40,959 bases of DNA from a virus: positions 1 to 40,959 of the IMG/VR virus record IMGVR_UViG_3300037246_002612; one strand, 5' to 3'. Positions 677 to 39,469 of this stretch are shown one piece after another; within the stretch, counting starts at the first letter, position 1; each line of letters begins with the position of its first letter. A program made the translations under genes and the position numbers. The notes under the pieces were generated by a model, which was not told where the DNA came from, made no database searches, and saw nothing but the letters and a program-made list of their open reading frames with translations.

Positions 677-1003
677 TCAGTCTCCTGTTCCCACCCACGT
701 GCCGTCGGGTGCGAGCTTCGGGGTGCCGCCCACCCAGGTGCCATCCGGTGCCAGGCTGGGGCTACCACCCACCCACGTGCCATTGGGCGCGAGCTTGGGA
801 GAGCCACCCACCCAGTTTCCGTCCGGTGCCAAACTGGGGGAACCGCCCACCCAGCTACCAGACGGCGTGAGGCTGGGCGTGCCGCCTACCCACGTGCCAT
901 TCGGTGCGAGCTTGGGCGGATCGGCCTTTACGGTCATGCCTACCAGTGTGATCAGCAGAATGCCGGCGATAGCTGCCAAAGTTACGATCGTGTTGTGGTT
1001 CAT
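677..1003 (-). CDS. Membrane-anchored protein of six 13-residue WVGG repeats
   Basis: A 108-residue protein. Residues about 5-23 form one hydrophobic helix, probably a signal anchor, with the remainder outside or in the periplasm. Residues 29-106 are six back-to-back copies of a 13-residue unit with consensus P-x-L-A-P-D/N-G-T-W-V-G-G-S/T. Each repeat has one invariant Trp and a turn-forming Pro/Gly pattern, suggesting a beta-solenoid or binding repeat. It starts at ATG 1003-1001, overlapping the previous gene's stop as TGATG; the longer in-frame extension upstream is only a shadow of that gene. Function unknown; a cell-surface or peptidoglycan/glycan-binding role is a guess. Confidence 0.75.
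   Translation of the reverse strand: MNHNTIVTLAAIAGILLITLVGMTVKADPPKLAPNGTWVGGTPSLTPSGSWVGGSPSLAPDGNWVGGSPKLAPNGTWVGGSPSLAPDGTWVGGTPKLAPDGTWVGTGD
686..919 (-). repeat. Six tandem 39-bp coding repeats
   Basis: Six contiguous 39-bp units encode the 13-residue WVGG repeat. The period is a multiple of three and there are no spacers, so this is a protein-level repeat. Silent third-base differences between units show that they are not fresh duplications. Confidence 0.85.
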
Positions 1004-1413
1004 CAGAACAGTCTCCCTTGTGGATCTCGGCCCTCGAGCCATAGCTCGTGGCACTCTGCACACTGCTTCGGATCGTGGGTGTGCTGTGTCCCCTGTGCAG
1101 GGAACCGCAGCGGAGTGTCGGGGATGAACCCCGTCAGCTCGTACACATTGACCAGACGCTCGGTCAAGTCGTTGTAACGCTTCTCGGCCAGCTTGCGGAG
1201 CACTCCTCCGCGTAGTAGCTCGCTGATACGTTTGCCCATGACCTGGCGACCGTGGATGAGTCCGCGAGTCTTGCGGTACCACCACTCTTCGGCTTCGAAC
1301 GCCGCGGCTTTGCCCTTGAGGGCCACAAAAGCCTCTGCACAATCGCGCTGTTGCTTCCCGAGATTGGGAGAGGCAAGCAGCTTGTGCCAGGACTCTACAC
1401 TGGTGTGTTCCAC
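1003..1413 (-). CDS. Winged-helix-like protein with C-terminal CxxC
   Basis: A 136-residue protein. Residues about 15-95 read as helices followed by a recognition-type segment (GKRISELLRGGVLRKLAEKR) and a hydrophobic strand ending near YELTGF. This is the layout of small phage winged-helix proteins that test a marker and then bind DNA. A CAEC pair lies near residue 120 and may bind metal or be degenerate. The start is GTG 1413-1411 with a consensus AGGAGG four bases upstream. It follows the 106-residue gene after 11 bases and overlaps the WVGG gene. It could regulate this leftward operon, but the family is not firmly identified. Confidence 0.6.
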   Translation of the reverse strand: MEHTSVESWHKLLASPNLGKQQRDCAEAFVALKGKAAAFEAEEWWYRKTRGLIHGRQVMGKRISELLRGGVLRKLAEKRYNDLTERLVNVYELTGFIPDTPLRFPAQGTQHTHDPKQCAECHELWLEGRDPQGRLF

Positions 1414-1424
1414 GAACCCTCCTG

Positions 1425-1745
1425 CTAGGCCTGGGCAGCAGCGCCTGCTCTGGATGCATCCATAGCCCTGGCGTTCTCGTCTTCCAGGCGCTTCACGGAG
1501 TCCCTGGCCTTGCCCTGCGCAATGGACATGTCCTGCGTGGCTGCCAGGCTCTGTCCCACAGAGCCTCCGGTGAACGTGCTCACGGACTCCTGGAATCCGT
1601 CGTCCGGGGATATGGTTCCGCTCTGCTTCGACCGCATGTTGGGGTCGCTCATGGGCATGTCGTCTCCGCCGACAACATCCGCAGCTACGCCTCCGCTGGG
1701 AATGTTCGCTGCGGGCTTCTTCACGTCGGGCATAATTTCGGGCAT
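1425..1745 (-). CDS. Unknown 106-residue low-complexity protein
   Basis: The protein begins MPEIMPD. Its first half is rich in Pro, Gly, Met and Asp, and its C-terminal third looks like a charged amphipathic helix (KARDSVKRLEDENARAMDA) ending in Ala. The start at ATG 1745-1743 overlaps the endolysin stop as TAATG, and an AGGAGACTGTA-like ribosome site lies just upstream, within the endolysin gene. No transmembrane segment or known motif is visible. It directly follows the endolysin, but nothing in the sequence shows that it works in lysis. Confidence 0.7.
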   Translation of the reverse strand: MPEIMPDVKKPAANIPSGGVAADVVGGDDMPMSDPNMRSKQSGTISPDDGFQESVSTFTGGSVGQSLAATQDMSIAQGKARDSVKRLEDENARAMDASRAGAAAQA

Positions 1746-3516: not shown

Positions 3517-3710
3517 CTCATGCTCCTTTCGCGGCGTTCCGCACCGCTTTGCGCAGCGTACCGCACGGCGTTGCAGCGCGCCAGCGCCTATTTCGGTAGC
3601 GGGGGGAAAGCGCTACAGAGGCCGCGACGGGGGCTAGGTGGTGATTCACCTCGCCGTTCCGGCCGGACCCTCCACTCCGGTTCCTGGCCCCCGTCCTGTA
3701 GGGAGTGTCG
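3517..3710. promoter_or_regulatory. Divergent intergenic region between leftward operon and late operon
   Basis: This 194-base gene-free stretch separates the leftward coiled-coil gene from rightward terS, so both operons should have promoters here. It is very GC-rich and I see no clear -10/-35 pair for a standard sigma factor. It contains two perfect inverted repeats, GTAGCG at 3596-3601 with CGCTAC at 3611-3616, and AGGTG at 3636-3640 with CACCT at 3647-3651, which are operator-like. Confidence 0.5.
3596..3616. repeat. Inverted repeat, operator-like (GTAGCG/CGCTAC)
   Basis: A perfect 6-bp inverted repeat with a 9-base spacer, in the divergent region. It shares the half-site GTAGC with an inverted repeat in the other divergent region (34213-34239), though with different spacing. 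Confidence 0.45.
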
Positions 3711-34713: not shown

Positions 34714-35412
34714 GTGAAATACCGACGCATCCCGGAATCGGCCCAGGCAGAGTCGCGGAAGTACCCCTGGGTCATCGATTTCTACATCGAAGTCGACCGT
34801 GCTGAATTCCGTGAGGACGTGCGTCCCATCGCCTACTACGCGTCCAAATACTCCTGTGATCGCAAGGTGATACGGAGACTCTTGCGCACTCGAAAAAGGG
34901 AGTTGGATGGTGGGAACATTGGCGGACCAATGCCTCCCCAGTACAGGACCAGCGAGGGACAGCCGCCCCCAGCAGAATCAAGCACTTACGGCGGCAACGG
35001 GACAGGTACGGGACAGGTACGGGACAGCAATGGGACAGCAATGGGACACGTAAGAGAAGAGAACAAGAGCAAGAGCAAGAGCAAGAGCAAGAAGAAGATA
35101 CAGATGCCCGAGAAGTTGGGGGAGACGATGGTCGAGGAGCTGATGCTGAGAATCTCCATCCGCCACTCGGATGAGAAGCGCCGTCATCACCGGGGCCGGC
35201 TGGAGATGGCCATCGAAGCGCTGCGGAACAAGGGCGAGCTGAGCGACAACTGGACGCGCAGGATCTGGGGCTACCTGAACCAGTGCGACATCTCGGAGGC
35301 CAAGCGAGCCGGCAAGCCGCACCCCGGCGCTATCAGCGACCAGCTCAAGGGCTACCACCGGACCCACCCGCCACGTGGAACACCCTCCAGCGCCCAAGGA
35401 GAACTGTCTTGA
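34714..35412 (+). CDS. Replication initiator-like protein
   Basis: A 232-residue protein. GTG 34714 has AAAGAGGAG three bases upstream. The N-terminal ~70 residues are helical (DRAEFREDVRPIAYYASKY and KVIRRLLRTRKREL) and look like a DNA-binding winged-helix domain. A low-complexity linker of Gly/Thr/Asn then KSKSKSKSKKK follows, and a C-terminal helical domain (EELMLRISIRHSDE, then WTRRIWGYLNQCD). Its gene contains five 11-bp repeats, as initiator genes such as lambda O carry their origin. It directly precedes the primase-helicase, which it may load. No firm family match. Confidence 0.6.
   Translation: MKYRRIPESAQAESRKYPWVIDFYIEVDRAEFREDVRPIAYYASKYSCDRKVIRRLLRTRKRELDGGNIGGPMPPQYRTSEGQPPPAESSTYGGNGTGTGQVRDSNGTAMGHVREENKSKSKSKSKKKIQMPEKLGETMVEELMLRISIRHSDEKRRHHRGRLEMAIEALRNKGELSDNWTRRIWGYLNQCDISEAKRAGKPHPGAISDQLKGYHRTHPPRGTPSSAQGELS
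34999..35053. repeat. Five tandem 11-bp iterons within the initiator gene (candidate origin)
   Basis: Five back-to-back 11-bp units start with GGGACA: 34999-35009, 35010-35020, 35021-35031, 35032-35042 and 35043-35053. Units 1-2 are identical and units 3-4 are identical. The period is not a multiple of three, so reading frame changes from unit to unit; the sequence is kept at DNA level. Iterons inside an initiator gene are the mark of lambda-type origins. Confidence 0.65.
35065..35088. repeat. Four tandem AAGAGC hexamers, purine-rich tract
   Basis: AAGAGC occurs four times in a row, followed by AAGAAGAAG, giving an all-purine-biased strand of about 45 bases directly after the iterons. It encodes the KSKSKSKSKKK linker. 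It could be an unwinding element or just a coding low-complexity stretch. Confidence 0.7.
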
Positions 35413-37073
35413 CCGACATGCTGCGCCACCGTGACCCTTCGTCCAGCTGCCCAATTTGCGGAGGTCACGAGTTCTGTCAGAGGGGAACGGGCACGCGCTG
35501 CTTCGGATACACGACAGATAAGACCGTCTTCTGCACTCGCATGGAGAGCAAGACGTACCACGACGGAGCTGCAGTCTGGAGCCACAATCGGAACGGCCAG
35601 TGCGACTGCGGCTACCGTCATTCTGGTGACGGTCTCCCTGGCCCGGTTCATGCCGGAATGCCGGGAATGACTCCCACACCGCCAGAGGATCGTCCCCCAA
35701 GCTCCGCAGGTGCCCCCAGGAGCGACGAAGACGCTGAAGCGGTCTACGTGTACCACTCGGTGGAGAACGCGCCTCTGATACGCGTGCTGCGCTTCTCAGA
35801 CCCTAAGGAATTCCGCCAGCAGCGCTGGAGCAGGGAGCTGGAGGAGTGGATTTGGGGCCTGGGACCGCGCGAGACCCGTCCGGCTGCGGTGCTCTACCAC
35901 CTGGCAGAGGTGCGTTTCGCCGTCGCCCAGCGTCAGCCGATTTGGCTGTGCGAGGGGGAGAAGGACGTGGAGGCTCTGAACCTTCATTTCTCGGAGCGGA
36001 CAGGCGAAGATCCGGTGGAGGGCTTCGCGACCTGCAACGCCGGAGGATCCTCCCAATTCACGTACCACCATGCGGAGCAGCTGCGAGATGCGGTACAGGT
36101 AAACGTGATCCGGGACAAGGACGATGCCGGAGCCGCCTGGAGCCGAAAGATATTCGGTCTGCTCGAGGACGCTGCCGGCACCGGGATGATCGACATCCGC
36201 ATCTGGGAGGTGCCCATGGAGAAGCAGGGCGCAGACTGGTCGGACTGGGCTGCGGAGGGCGGCAGCGTGGACGGCCTCGTGCTGGTGTTCCCGACCCCAG
36301 TCGAGCGTCAGCGCTTCGCAATTCGCGGCGGGGCTTCTGTGCCAAAAGCACTGCACAGGGTCAATCTGAAGGTCTTCAATTCAGTGCCGGCGCTGTCGTG
36401 GCCTTCGGACCTGCCGAAGTTCCCGGAGTGTAGTGGCCTCACGATCCTGTCGGGGCAGACCGGATCAGCGAAGTCGTGGCTGGCCATCGCGATGAGTCTT
36501 CAGTCGGCGATGTTGGGGATCGAGGTGGCCTACGTGTCCGTCGAGCTCGACGTGGCAACGGTCATGAAGCGTGCGCAGGCGTACTTCTCCGGCAACCTGG
36601 GATTGGTGCCGGAGTGTTGGGGCCTCTACGTGCCGATGGCACACGAGCCGTGGGAGAATGTGCTTAACGTGTTGGAAGAGAGATGCACCGGCAACCCGCT
36701 GTTGCTGTTCATCGACAGCATCAACACCTTCGTGGTCAACGAAGAGGCTCCCGGTGAGCATGACACCTTCCAGCTCGGCACGATCTCGGAGCGCATCATG
36801 CAATGCAGGACGATGGTCAACCGGGGCCGTGGTCTCATTGGTGTCGTGCTGGTCAGTGAAGCCAACGCGGCCGGCGGCATGAAGGGCCGGCTGGATTTCC
36901 GCGCGAACATCTCGATCAACATGGAGAAGCGCGAAGACAACCATAGACAGATTGACATCACGATCGTGAAGAACTGGGACGGTTACGCCGGCCAGCTCGG
37001 ACTGCATGAATTGGATACAGAGAACGGTCGCTTCACCTTCATCCCCGAACACGAAGAGGAGTGTGCTCTGTGA
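35409..37073 (+). CDS. Primase-helicase (zinc, TOPRIM and RecA-like domains)
   Basis: A 554-residue protein. It begins with a zinc-binding domain (CPICGGHEFC and later CDCGY), then a TOPRIM primase region (WLCEGEKDVEALN near 180 and IRDKDDAG near 235), then a RecA/DnaB-type ATPase (LSGQTGSAKSWLAIAM near 347 and LLLFIDSINTF near 430). It would unwind the fork and make primers. The start TTG 35409 overlaps the initiator stop as TTGA with AAGGAG seven bases upstream; ATG 35418 is in frame but too far from that site. No phage DNA polymerase is present, so host polymerase is expected. Confidence 0.85.
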   Translation: MTDMLRHRDPSSSCPICGGHEFCQRGTGTRCFGYTTDKTVFCTRMESKTYHDGAAVWSHNRNGQCDCGYRHSGDGLPGPVHAGMPGMTPTPPEDRPPSSAGAPRSDEDAEAVYVYHSVENAPLIRVLRFSDPKEFRQQRWSRELEEWIWGLGPRETRPAAVLYHLAEVRFAVAQRQPIWLCEGEKDVEALNLHFSERTGEDPVEGFATCNAGGSSQFTYHHAEQLRDAVQVNVIRDKDDAGAAWSRKIFGLLEDAAGTGMIDIRIWEVPMEKQGADWSDWAAEGGSVDGLVLVFPTPVERQRFAIRGGASVPKALHRVNLKVFNSVPALSWPSDLPKFPECSGLTILSGQTGSAKSWLAIAMSLQSAMLGIEVAYVSVELDVATVMKRAQAYFSGNLGLVPECWGLYVPMAHEPWENVLNVLEERCTGNPLLLFIDSINTFVVNEEAPGEHDTFQLGTISERIMQCRTMVNRGRGLIGVVLVSEANAAGGMKGRLDFRANISINMEKREDNHRQIDITIVKNWDGYAGQLGLHELDTENGRFTFIPEHEEECAL

Positions 37074-39430: not shown

Positions 39431-39469
39431 AAAAGGGGGCCGGAGAGCAACTGCCCTCCGACCACCCTT
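39429..39469 (-). terminator. Rho-independent terminator of leftward operon
   Basis: On the minus strand a GC-rich hairpin, AAGGG-GG-CGGAG (39433-39445) pairing with CTCCG-CC-CCCTT (39456-39469, one bulge), is followed by TTTTTT (the AAAAAA at 39429-39434 on the plus strand). That is a standard intrinsic terminator for the leftward operon. It overlaps the end of the convergent rightward gene and may also slow transcription from that side. Confidence 0.75.

Follow-up and report, generated by a model that had tools for sequence, protein, structure and literature searches.

A candidate replication origin resembling SPP1 oriL inside an initiator-like gene of an uncultivated virus

The replication origin of phage lambda lies inside the initiator gene O and has four iterons of about 18-20 bp with dyad symmetry, after which comes a tract that is asymmetric and opens easily; the helicase loader is lambda P. 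Also in Bacillus phage SPP1, direct repeats of an origin, oriL, are situated inside gene 38, and it is the product of this gene, gp38 (G38P), that binds them (PMC6316719). In the case of PLE RepA, an initiator of the RepA_N type, the DNA-binding domain of the initiator and the iterons of the origin covary and swap specificity together (PMC8263062, PMC7145576). Here we describe a repeat array in the window, by which the whole analysed stretch of DNA is meant, a virus record of 40,959 bases. It is quite probable that the array represents the iterons of an SPP1-oriL-like origin in the initiator gene, which the encoded protein would bind for the opening of an adjoining tract and the loading of a primase-helicase, and a likely origin of an uncultivated virus would thereby have been located from sequence alone.

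Array, tract and genes in the window

Five 11-bp units with an exact GGGACA core follow each other head to tail at 34999-35053 (plus strand), namely GGGACAGGTAC at 34999 and at 35010, GGGACAGCAAT at 35021 and at 35032, and GGGACACGTAA at 35043, which is what the sequence-only reading had described. TRF gives the array a period of 11, 5.0 copies and 88%. No other exact 6-mer in the window builds up so long a chain at a constant spacing of 8-14 (5 copies here), and in 60 dinucleotide shuffles of the window the longest chain had 2 copies (58 times) or 3 (twice), and never more than 3. As the unit length of 11 is not a multiple of 3, successive units encode different residue pairs, and the claimed change of residues from unit to unit is indeed found: the units lie in frames 0, 2, 1, 0 and 2 and encode GT, GQ, RD, GT and GH. 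With the protein held fixed and the phage's own codon usage, the probability that all five units read GGGACA is 1.4e-6, and the repeat therefore resides in the DNA and is no by-product of a repeated peptide; in 20,000 synonymous resamplings, GGGACA never appeared more than 3 times. Across the units the six-base core is invariant, whereas the last five bases vary. That the array is under selection on the DNA rather than on the protein, as had been suspected, is thus supported in the window, and strongly so in an independent family of the same layout that is described below. A sixth GGGACA is present at 34956, with an AGGACC 11 bp before it (34945), and the two may form an outlying half-cluster (34945-34961, plus strand) 43 bp before the main array; members of the DnaD/O-like family also carry an upstream cluster.

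The array lies in an ORF of 232 aa (34714-35412, plus strand) with a GTG start after AGGAG. The position and the layout of this ORF fit the earlier description as initiator-like, but homology to initiators finds no support, as there is no match in Pfam or PHROG. An N-terminal helix-turn-helix-like segment is followed by the iteron-encoded linker, a low-complexity K/S linker and a C-terminal helical domain. Residues 37-65 (RPIAYYASKYSCDRKVIRRLLRTRKRE; 34822-34908, plus strand) make up the helix-turn-helix-like segment, which may be the DNA-reading part, judging from a weak alignment and from an AlphaFold model of the single sequence, in which helices H37-45 and H50-65 are predicted with low confidence (pLDDT 45). 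The C-terminal domain (35098-35409, plus strand), to which the same low-confidence model gives four helices within residues 133-217, possibly recruits the primase-helicase. As a source of information on the window protein, AlphaFold with this protein alone was discarded as uninformative. Because the linker is disordered, it would be free to carry the array.

Directly behind the repeats lies a purine-rich tract of low stability (35046-35109, plus strand), which contains (AGAGCA)x5.5 at 35060-35092 (TRF). The purine richness that the sequence-only reading had seen there is the maximum of the whole window for 50-, 60- and 80-mers, with the most purine-rich 60-mer starting at 35045 (0.83), and by stability, the 60-mer cluster starting at 35046 is the second lowest of the window. 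The tract looks as a DNA unwinding element beside iterons should and is a candidate for this function. The cumulative GC skew, which had been named as a check, gives no support for an origin near 35 kb, as its minimum is at 3594 and its maximum at 39447, with no extremum near that position. A DnaA-dependent origin finds no support either, as the DnaA box TT[AT]TNCACA is absent throughout the window.

The next gene downstream (35418-37073, plus strand, ATG at 35418) encodes a primase-helicase with a Toprim-like part and a RecA-like ATPase. Its product weakly matches the DNA primase/helicase PHROG 239 (E 2.5e-4) and also PHROG 6088 and 19, has Pfam AAA_25 and Toprim_2 below the cut-off, and shares 28% identity with gp78 of Arthrobacter phage BruhMoment (E 5e-9); the weak PHROG match and the BruhMoment gp78 match bear out the claim that the array gene stands just before a primase-helicase. 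No separate helicase loader was recognised beside this gene. In BruhMoment itself, four TGTTCCCT-type palindromes are found between gp79 and the primase/helicase gene (L276:5460-5620), a possible operator or origin region.

Relatives of the window initiator, the primase-helicase and the portal were not found in the viral contigs searched, and there were none of the initiator among phages and none of the primase among genomes. Terminase relatives of the virus do exist, and the two long ones (including G004) contain no GGGACA pairs. The initiator-like ORF of G004 is a different one, in which loose repeats of AACGT are accompanied by an (AAGCAG)x5 tract, and it is not counted as evidence; an ORF of this kind in a terminase relative, with the (AAGCAG)x5 after the AACGT repeats (L277:10892-11374), echoes the array and hexamer tract of the window. 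Elsewhere in the window, an ORF at 677-1459 (minus strand) has an in-frame repeat with a unit of 39 bp (5.8 copies at 690-916; a period of 78 is also called), which encodes a peptide repeat of the TPSLxPxGxWVGGSP type.

Iteron arrays and recognition helices of DnaD/O-like initiators

So that loci would not be chosen by the motif, a search was restricted to the N-terminal domain of DnaD/O-like initiators (alignment A2, which contains no linker), and it yielded 80 loci. In all of them (80/80), an 11/12-bp hexamer array was called in the linker DNA that directly follows the winged-helix domain; the caller was limited to the register GNN[ACG]C[AG], and an unrestricted caller gives the same cores. 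Among 63 non-redundant linkers, the top hexamer recurring at 9-13 bp is GGGACA (29/63), a share that may be inflated, as the seven seed sequences of A2 all come from GGGACA-bearing loci, whereas these seeds select neither for the presence of an array nor for its covariation with the helix. Control stretches matched in length and taken from other parts of these loci gave at most 1/57 for any hexamer. The same layout is found with the cores GACGCA, GATACA, GAAACA, GAGACA, GCGACA, GGAACA, GAACCA, GGACCA, GACCCA and GTCGCA, and the linker peptide follows in each case from translating the hexamer in three frames (GT/GQ/RD for GGGACA, DT/IQ/RY for GATACA, DA/TQ/RR for GACGCA, ET/KQ/RN for GAAACA). 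After the array, the AT content is 62% versus 43%, with weaker stacking (n=37). Gene 38 of SPP1, a member that has been mapped by experiment, falls in this family (tblastn E 9e-5); units of 11 bp with (A/C)GACA are present in the DNA of its linker, and an AT-rich repeat tract comes after them.

The core of the array goes together with the recognition helix of the encoded protein (positions in the numbering of L282). Positions 75 and 71 rank first in mutual information with the core among the columns of the winged-helix domain, and at matched background identity the residues 71/72/75 are shared to 0.74-0.88 in pairs with the same core and to 0.11-0.17 in pairs with different cores. Leave-one-out prediction of the core reached an accuracy of 0.86 from the helix residues versus 0.59 from the rest of the domain. 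On a tree from which the helix columns were left out, the core has switched at least 24 times, and common descent therefore does not explain the link. At loci that were not used for deriving the rule and have helices close to known ones, the cores agree (GACGCA in L365, L414 and L432, GAGACA in L417); some new loci carry cores that the rule had not seen (AACGCA, GGCACA, GGTACA), the core of L362 does not fit its nearest training helix, and L366, L394, L427 and L428 have no clear array. An AlphaFold model of the family domain is a winged helix with pLDDT 90, in which the second helix of the HTH spans 71-83, so that residues 71, 72 and 75 are at its start. The best structural match is a CAP-type wHTH, with generic winged helices as matches and no DnaD or RepA_N entries among those listed, and a PDB sequence search with the family profile found nothing. 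In CAP-type winged helices, the residues equivalent to 71, 72 and 76 contact DNA bases.

From these sequences a rule can be proposed, by which K71-S72-D75 would specify GGGACA, E71-R75 GACGCA, Q75 GATACA, N75 GAAACA, and H70-R71-D/E75 GAGACA. The window protein scored below 0 bits against the family HMMs of SPP1 G38P-like and DnaD-like organizers, and it resembles other array-bearing proteins only in the repeat-encoded linker. A weak ungapped alignment with negative bit score places its R, K, R and R at positions 71, 72, 75 and 76 (DRKVIRR), and L119 combines the helix DRKKVRR with nine GGGACA units; the resemblance of the two helices, both accompanied by GGGACA, may be taken as suggestive only. 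It is probable that DnaD/O-like phage initiators of many host phyla carry the origin in the linker of their own gene, in the form of an 11-bp iteron array with a core that can be read from two to three residues of the recognition helix, and that the window is a further, sequence-diverged instance (R71/R75 by weak alignment). The helix-iteron rule across the family is a more novel result than the window array itself, and no paper describing GGGACA iterons or such a rule was found in the open-access literature. With it, the unusual GTxGQxRD linkers of phage replication proteins, so far an anecdotal pattern, become a testable link between a DNA-binding helix and its iteron, and for many uncultivated phages the origin and the specificity of the initiator could be predicted and swapped.

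Arrays with three GGGACA spaced by five bases (GGGACA-N5-GGGACA-N5-GGGACA) occur in at least 120 viral contigs versus 32 for the permuted GGAGCA motif, a raw count that is not used as proof because many of the arrays sit in other contexts. Some adjoin integrases, others precede small-terminase-like genes or form minisatellites, and the motif alone is therefore no proof of an origin. In betaproteobacterial chromosomes (Limnohabitans, Comamonadaceae), 11-bp arrays of the GGGGACAAAAC type (L195:1965, L231:4410, L223:5108) adjoin a tyrosine-integrase-like ORF (MKLTDAKLRTLTQPGKHADGAGLYLE) and are possible integrase arm sites. Marine phages have non-coding arrays GTGTCCCTGAGGGACACCATAGGGACACCAT just upstream of a small-terminase-like ORF (DLTPKQRMFVEIYVKDWG), which may be a packaging signal (L048:2504, L058:8501, L061:6531), and in two Lentisphaera/Lentisphaeria MAGs, GGGACACGGAC or GGGACACAGTT minisatellites are present on many contigs (L163, L181, L184, L202, L206, L249 and others).

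Other possible functions of the array

It could be argued that the array is a coding minisatellite, in which replication slippage multiplied a unit of 11 bp within a disordered linker, without any function at the level of the DNA. Adjacent units are near-identical in pairs (GGTAC twice, GCAAT twice), as after a recent duplication, a second simple repeat, the (AGAGCA)x5.5, comes next, and GGGACA minisatellites are known from the Lentisphaera MAGs. This is nevertheless unlikely, as the six-base core is constant and only the five bases after it differ between units, the same core is found at the same place in initiators unrelated by sequence, and the core in the family tracks the recognition helix of the protein, a link that slippage does not predict. 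Still less likely is that the encoded protein binds the array for autoregulation, copy control or incompatibility and not for initiation. Plasmid iterons often double as control sites, and an intragenic array could act as a roadblock. The SPP1 protein gp38 has been proposed to stall forks at oriR (PMC6316719). However, the array begins 285 bp into the gene and is not promoter-proximal, and its location in the initiator gene, by an unstable tract and a primase-helicase, suits an origin of the kind represented by SPP1 oriL.

The same core might also serve another factor, for example in packaging (pac) or in the arm binding of an integrase, and similar GGGACA arrays are indeed present in marine phages, where they precede small-terminase-like ORFs, and in betaproteobacteria, where they adjoin tyrosine integrases. 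The window array, however, is inside the gene that precedes the primase-helicase, with the terminase gene about 29 kb away (in window coordinates), and 22 of the 48 array-bearing viral ORFs match one DnaD-like helicase-loader family of PHROG, with most of the other listed families named as replication initiation or primosomal, which makes such a function highly improbable.

Proposed mode of action and comparison with known origins

The candidate replication origin of the sequence-only reading is supported by the layout, by the constraint on the DNA, and by the organisation of SPP1 oriL. We infer three steps, namely binding of the window array by the window protein, unwinding of the tract, and recruitment of the primase-helicase. 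The encoded protein would bind the iterons, one copy per helical turn, with GGGACA being read by a winged-helix or HTH domain, and several bound copies, aligned along the same face of the helix, would put the DNA under strain. The purine-rich tract beside the array, which is unstable, would then open, the primase-helicase of the next gene would be loaded at the opened tract, and theta replication could start.

A lambda-like intragenic origin had been suggested for this locus, and the iterons are indeed inside a gene and followed by a tract, as in lambda, but the short 11-bp units of SPP1 oriL fit better. The window array differs from a lambda-type ori in its period of 11 bp and in the lack of an internal dyad in the GGGACA core. 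A link to the iterons of plasmid pPS10 was not confirmed. PLE RepA is like the present family in the covariation of initiator DNA-binding domain and iterons; its iterons, however, are semi-palindromic, about 30 bp long and located in a non-coding region, and they belong to a different initiator family (PMC8263062, PMC7145576).

The DnaD-like and O-like phage initiators (PHROG 2514, 35955, 186, 345 and 678) have GGGACA arrays with 11/12-bp spacing in the linker after the winged helix, and the array is followed by an A/purine-rich tract, as in the window, though the window protein matches none of these PHROGs. In SPP1, the repeats are just after the winged-helix domain of gene 38, the core is (A/C)GACA and not GGGACA as in the window, and there are a separate loader (gp39) and a DnaB-type helicase (gp40) where the window has a primase-helicase; furthermore, the window initiator has no detectable sequence homology to the winged helices of the G38P family (family HMM below 0 bits). 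Like SPP1 oriL/G38P, however, the window has direct repeats spaced by 11 bp in the initiator gene, then an unstable tract, and a gene for a replication helicase nearby, and thus shares three layout features with the G38P-like loci: the 11-bp linker array, the adjoining tract of low stability, and the helicase gene directly downstream. By layout and likely mode of action, rather than by proven homology, the window is most likely to be assigned to the SPP1-oriL-like origins, and SPP1 oriL is the best experimental model for its layout.
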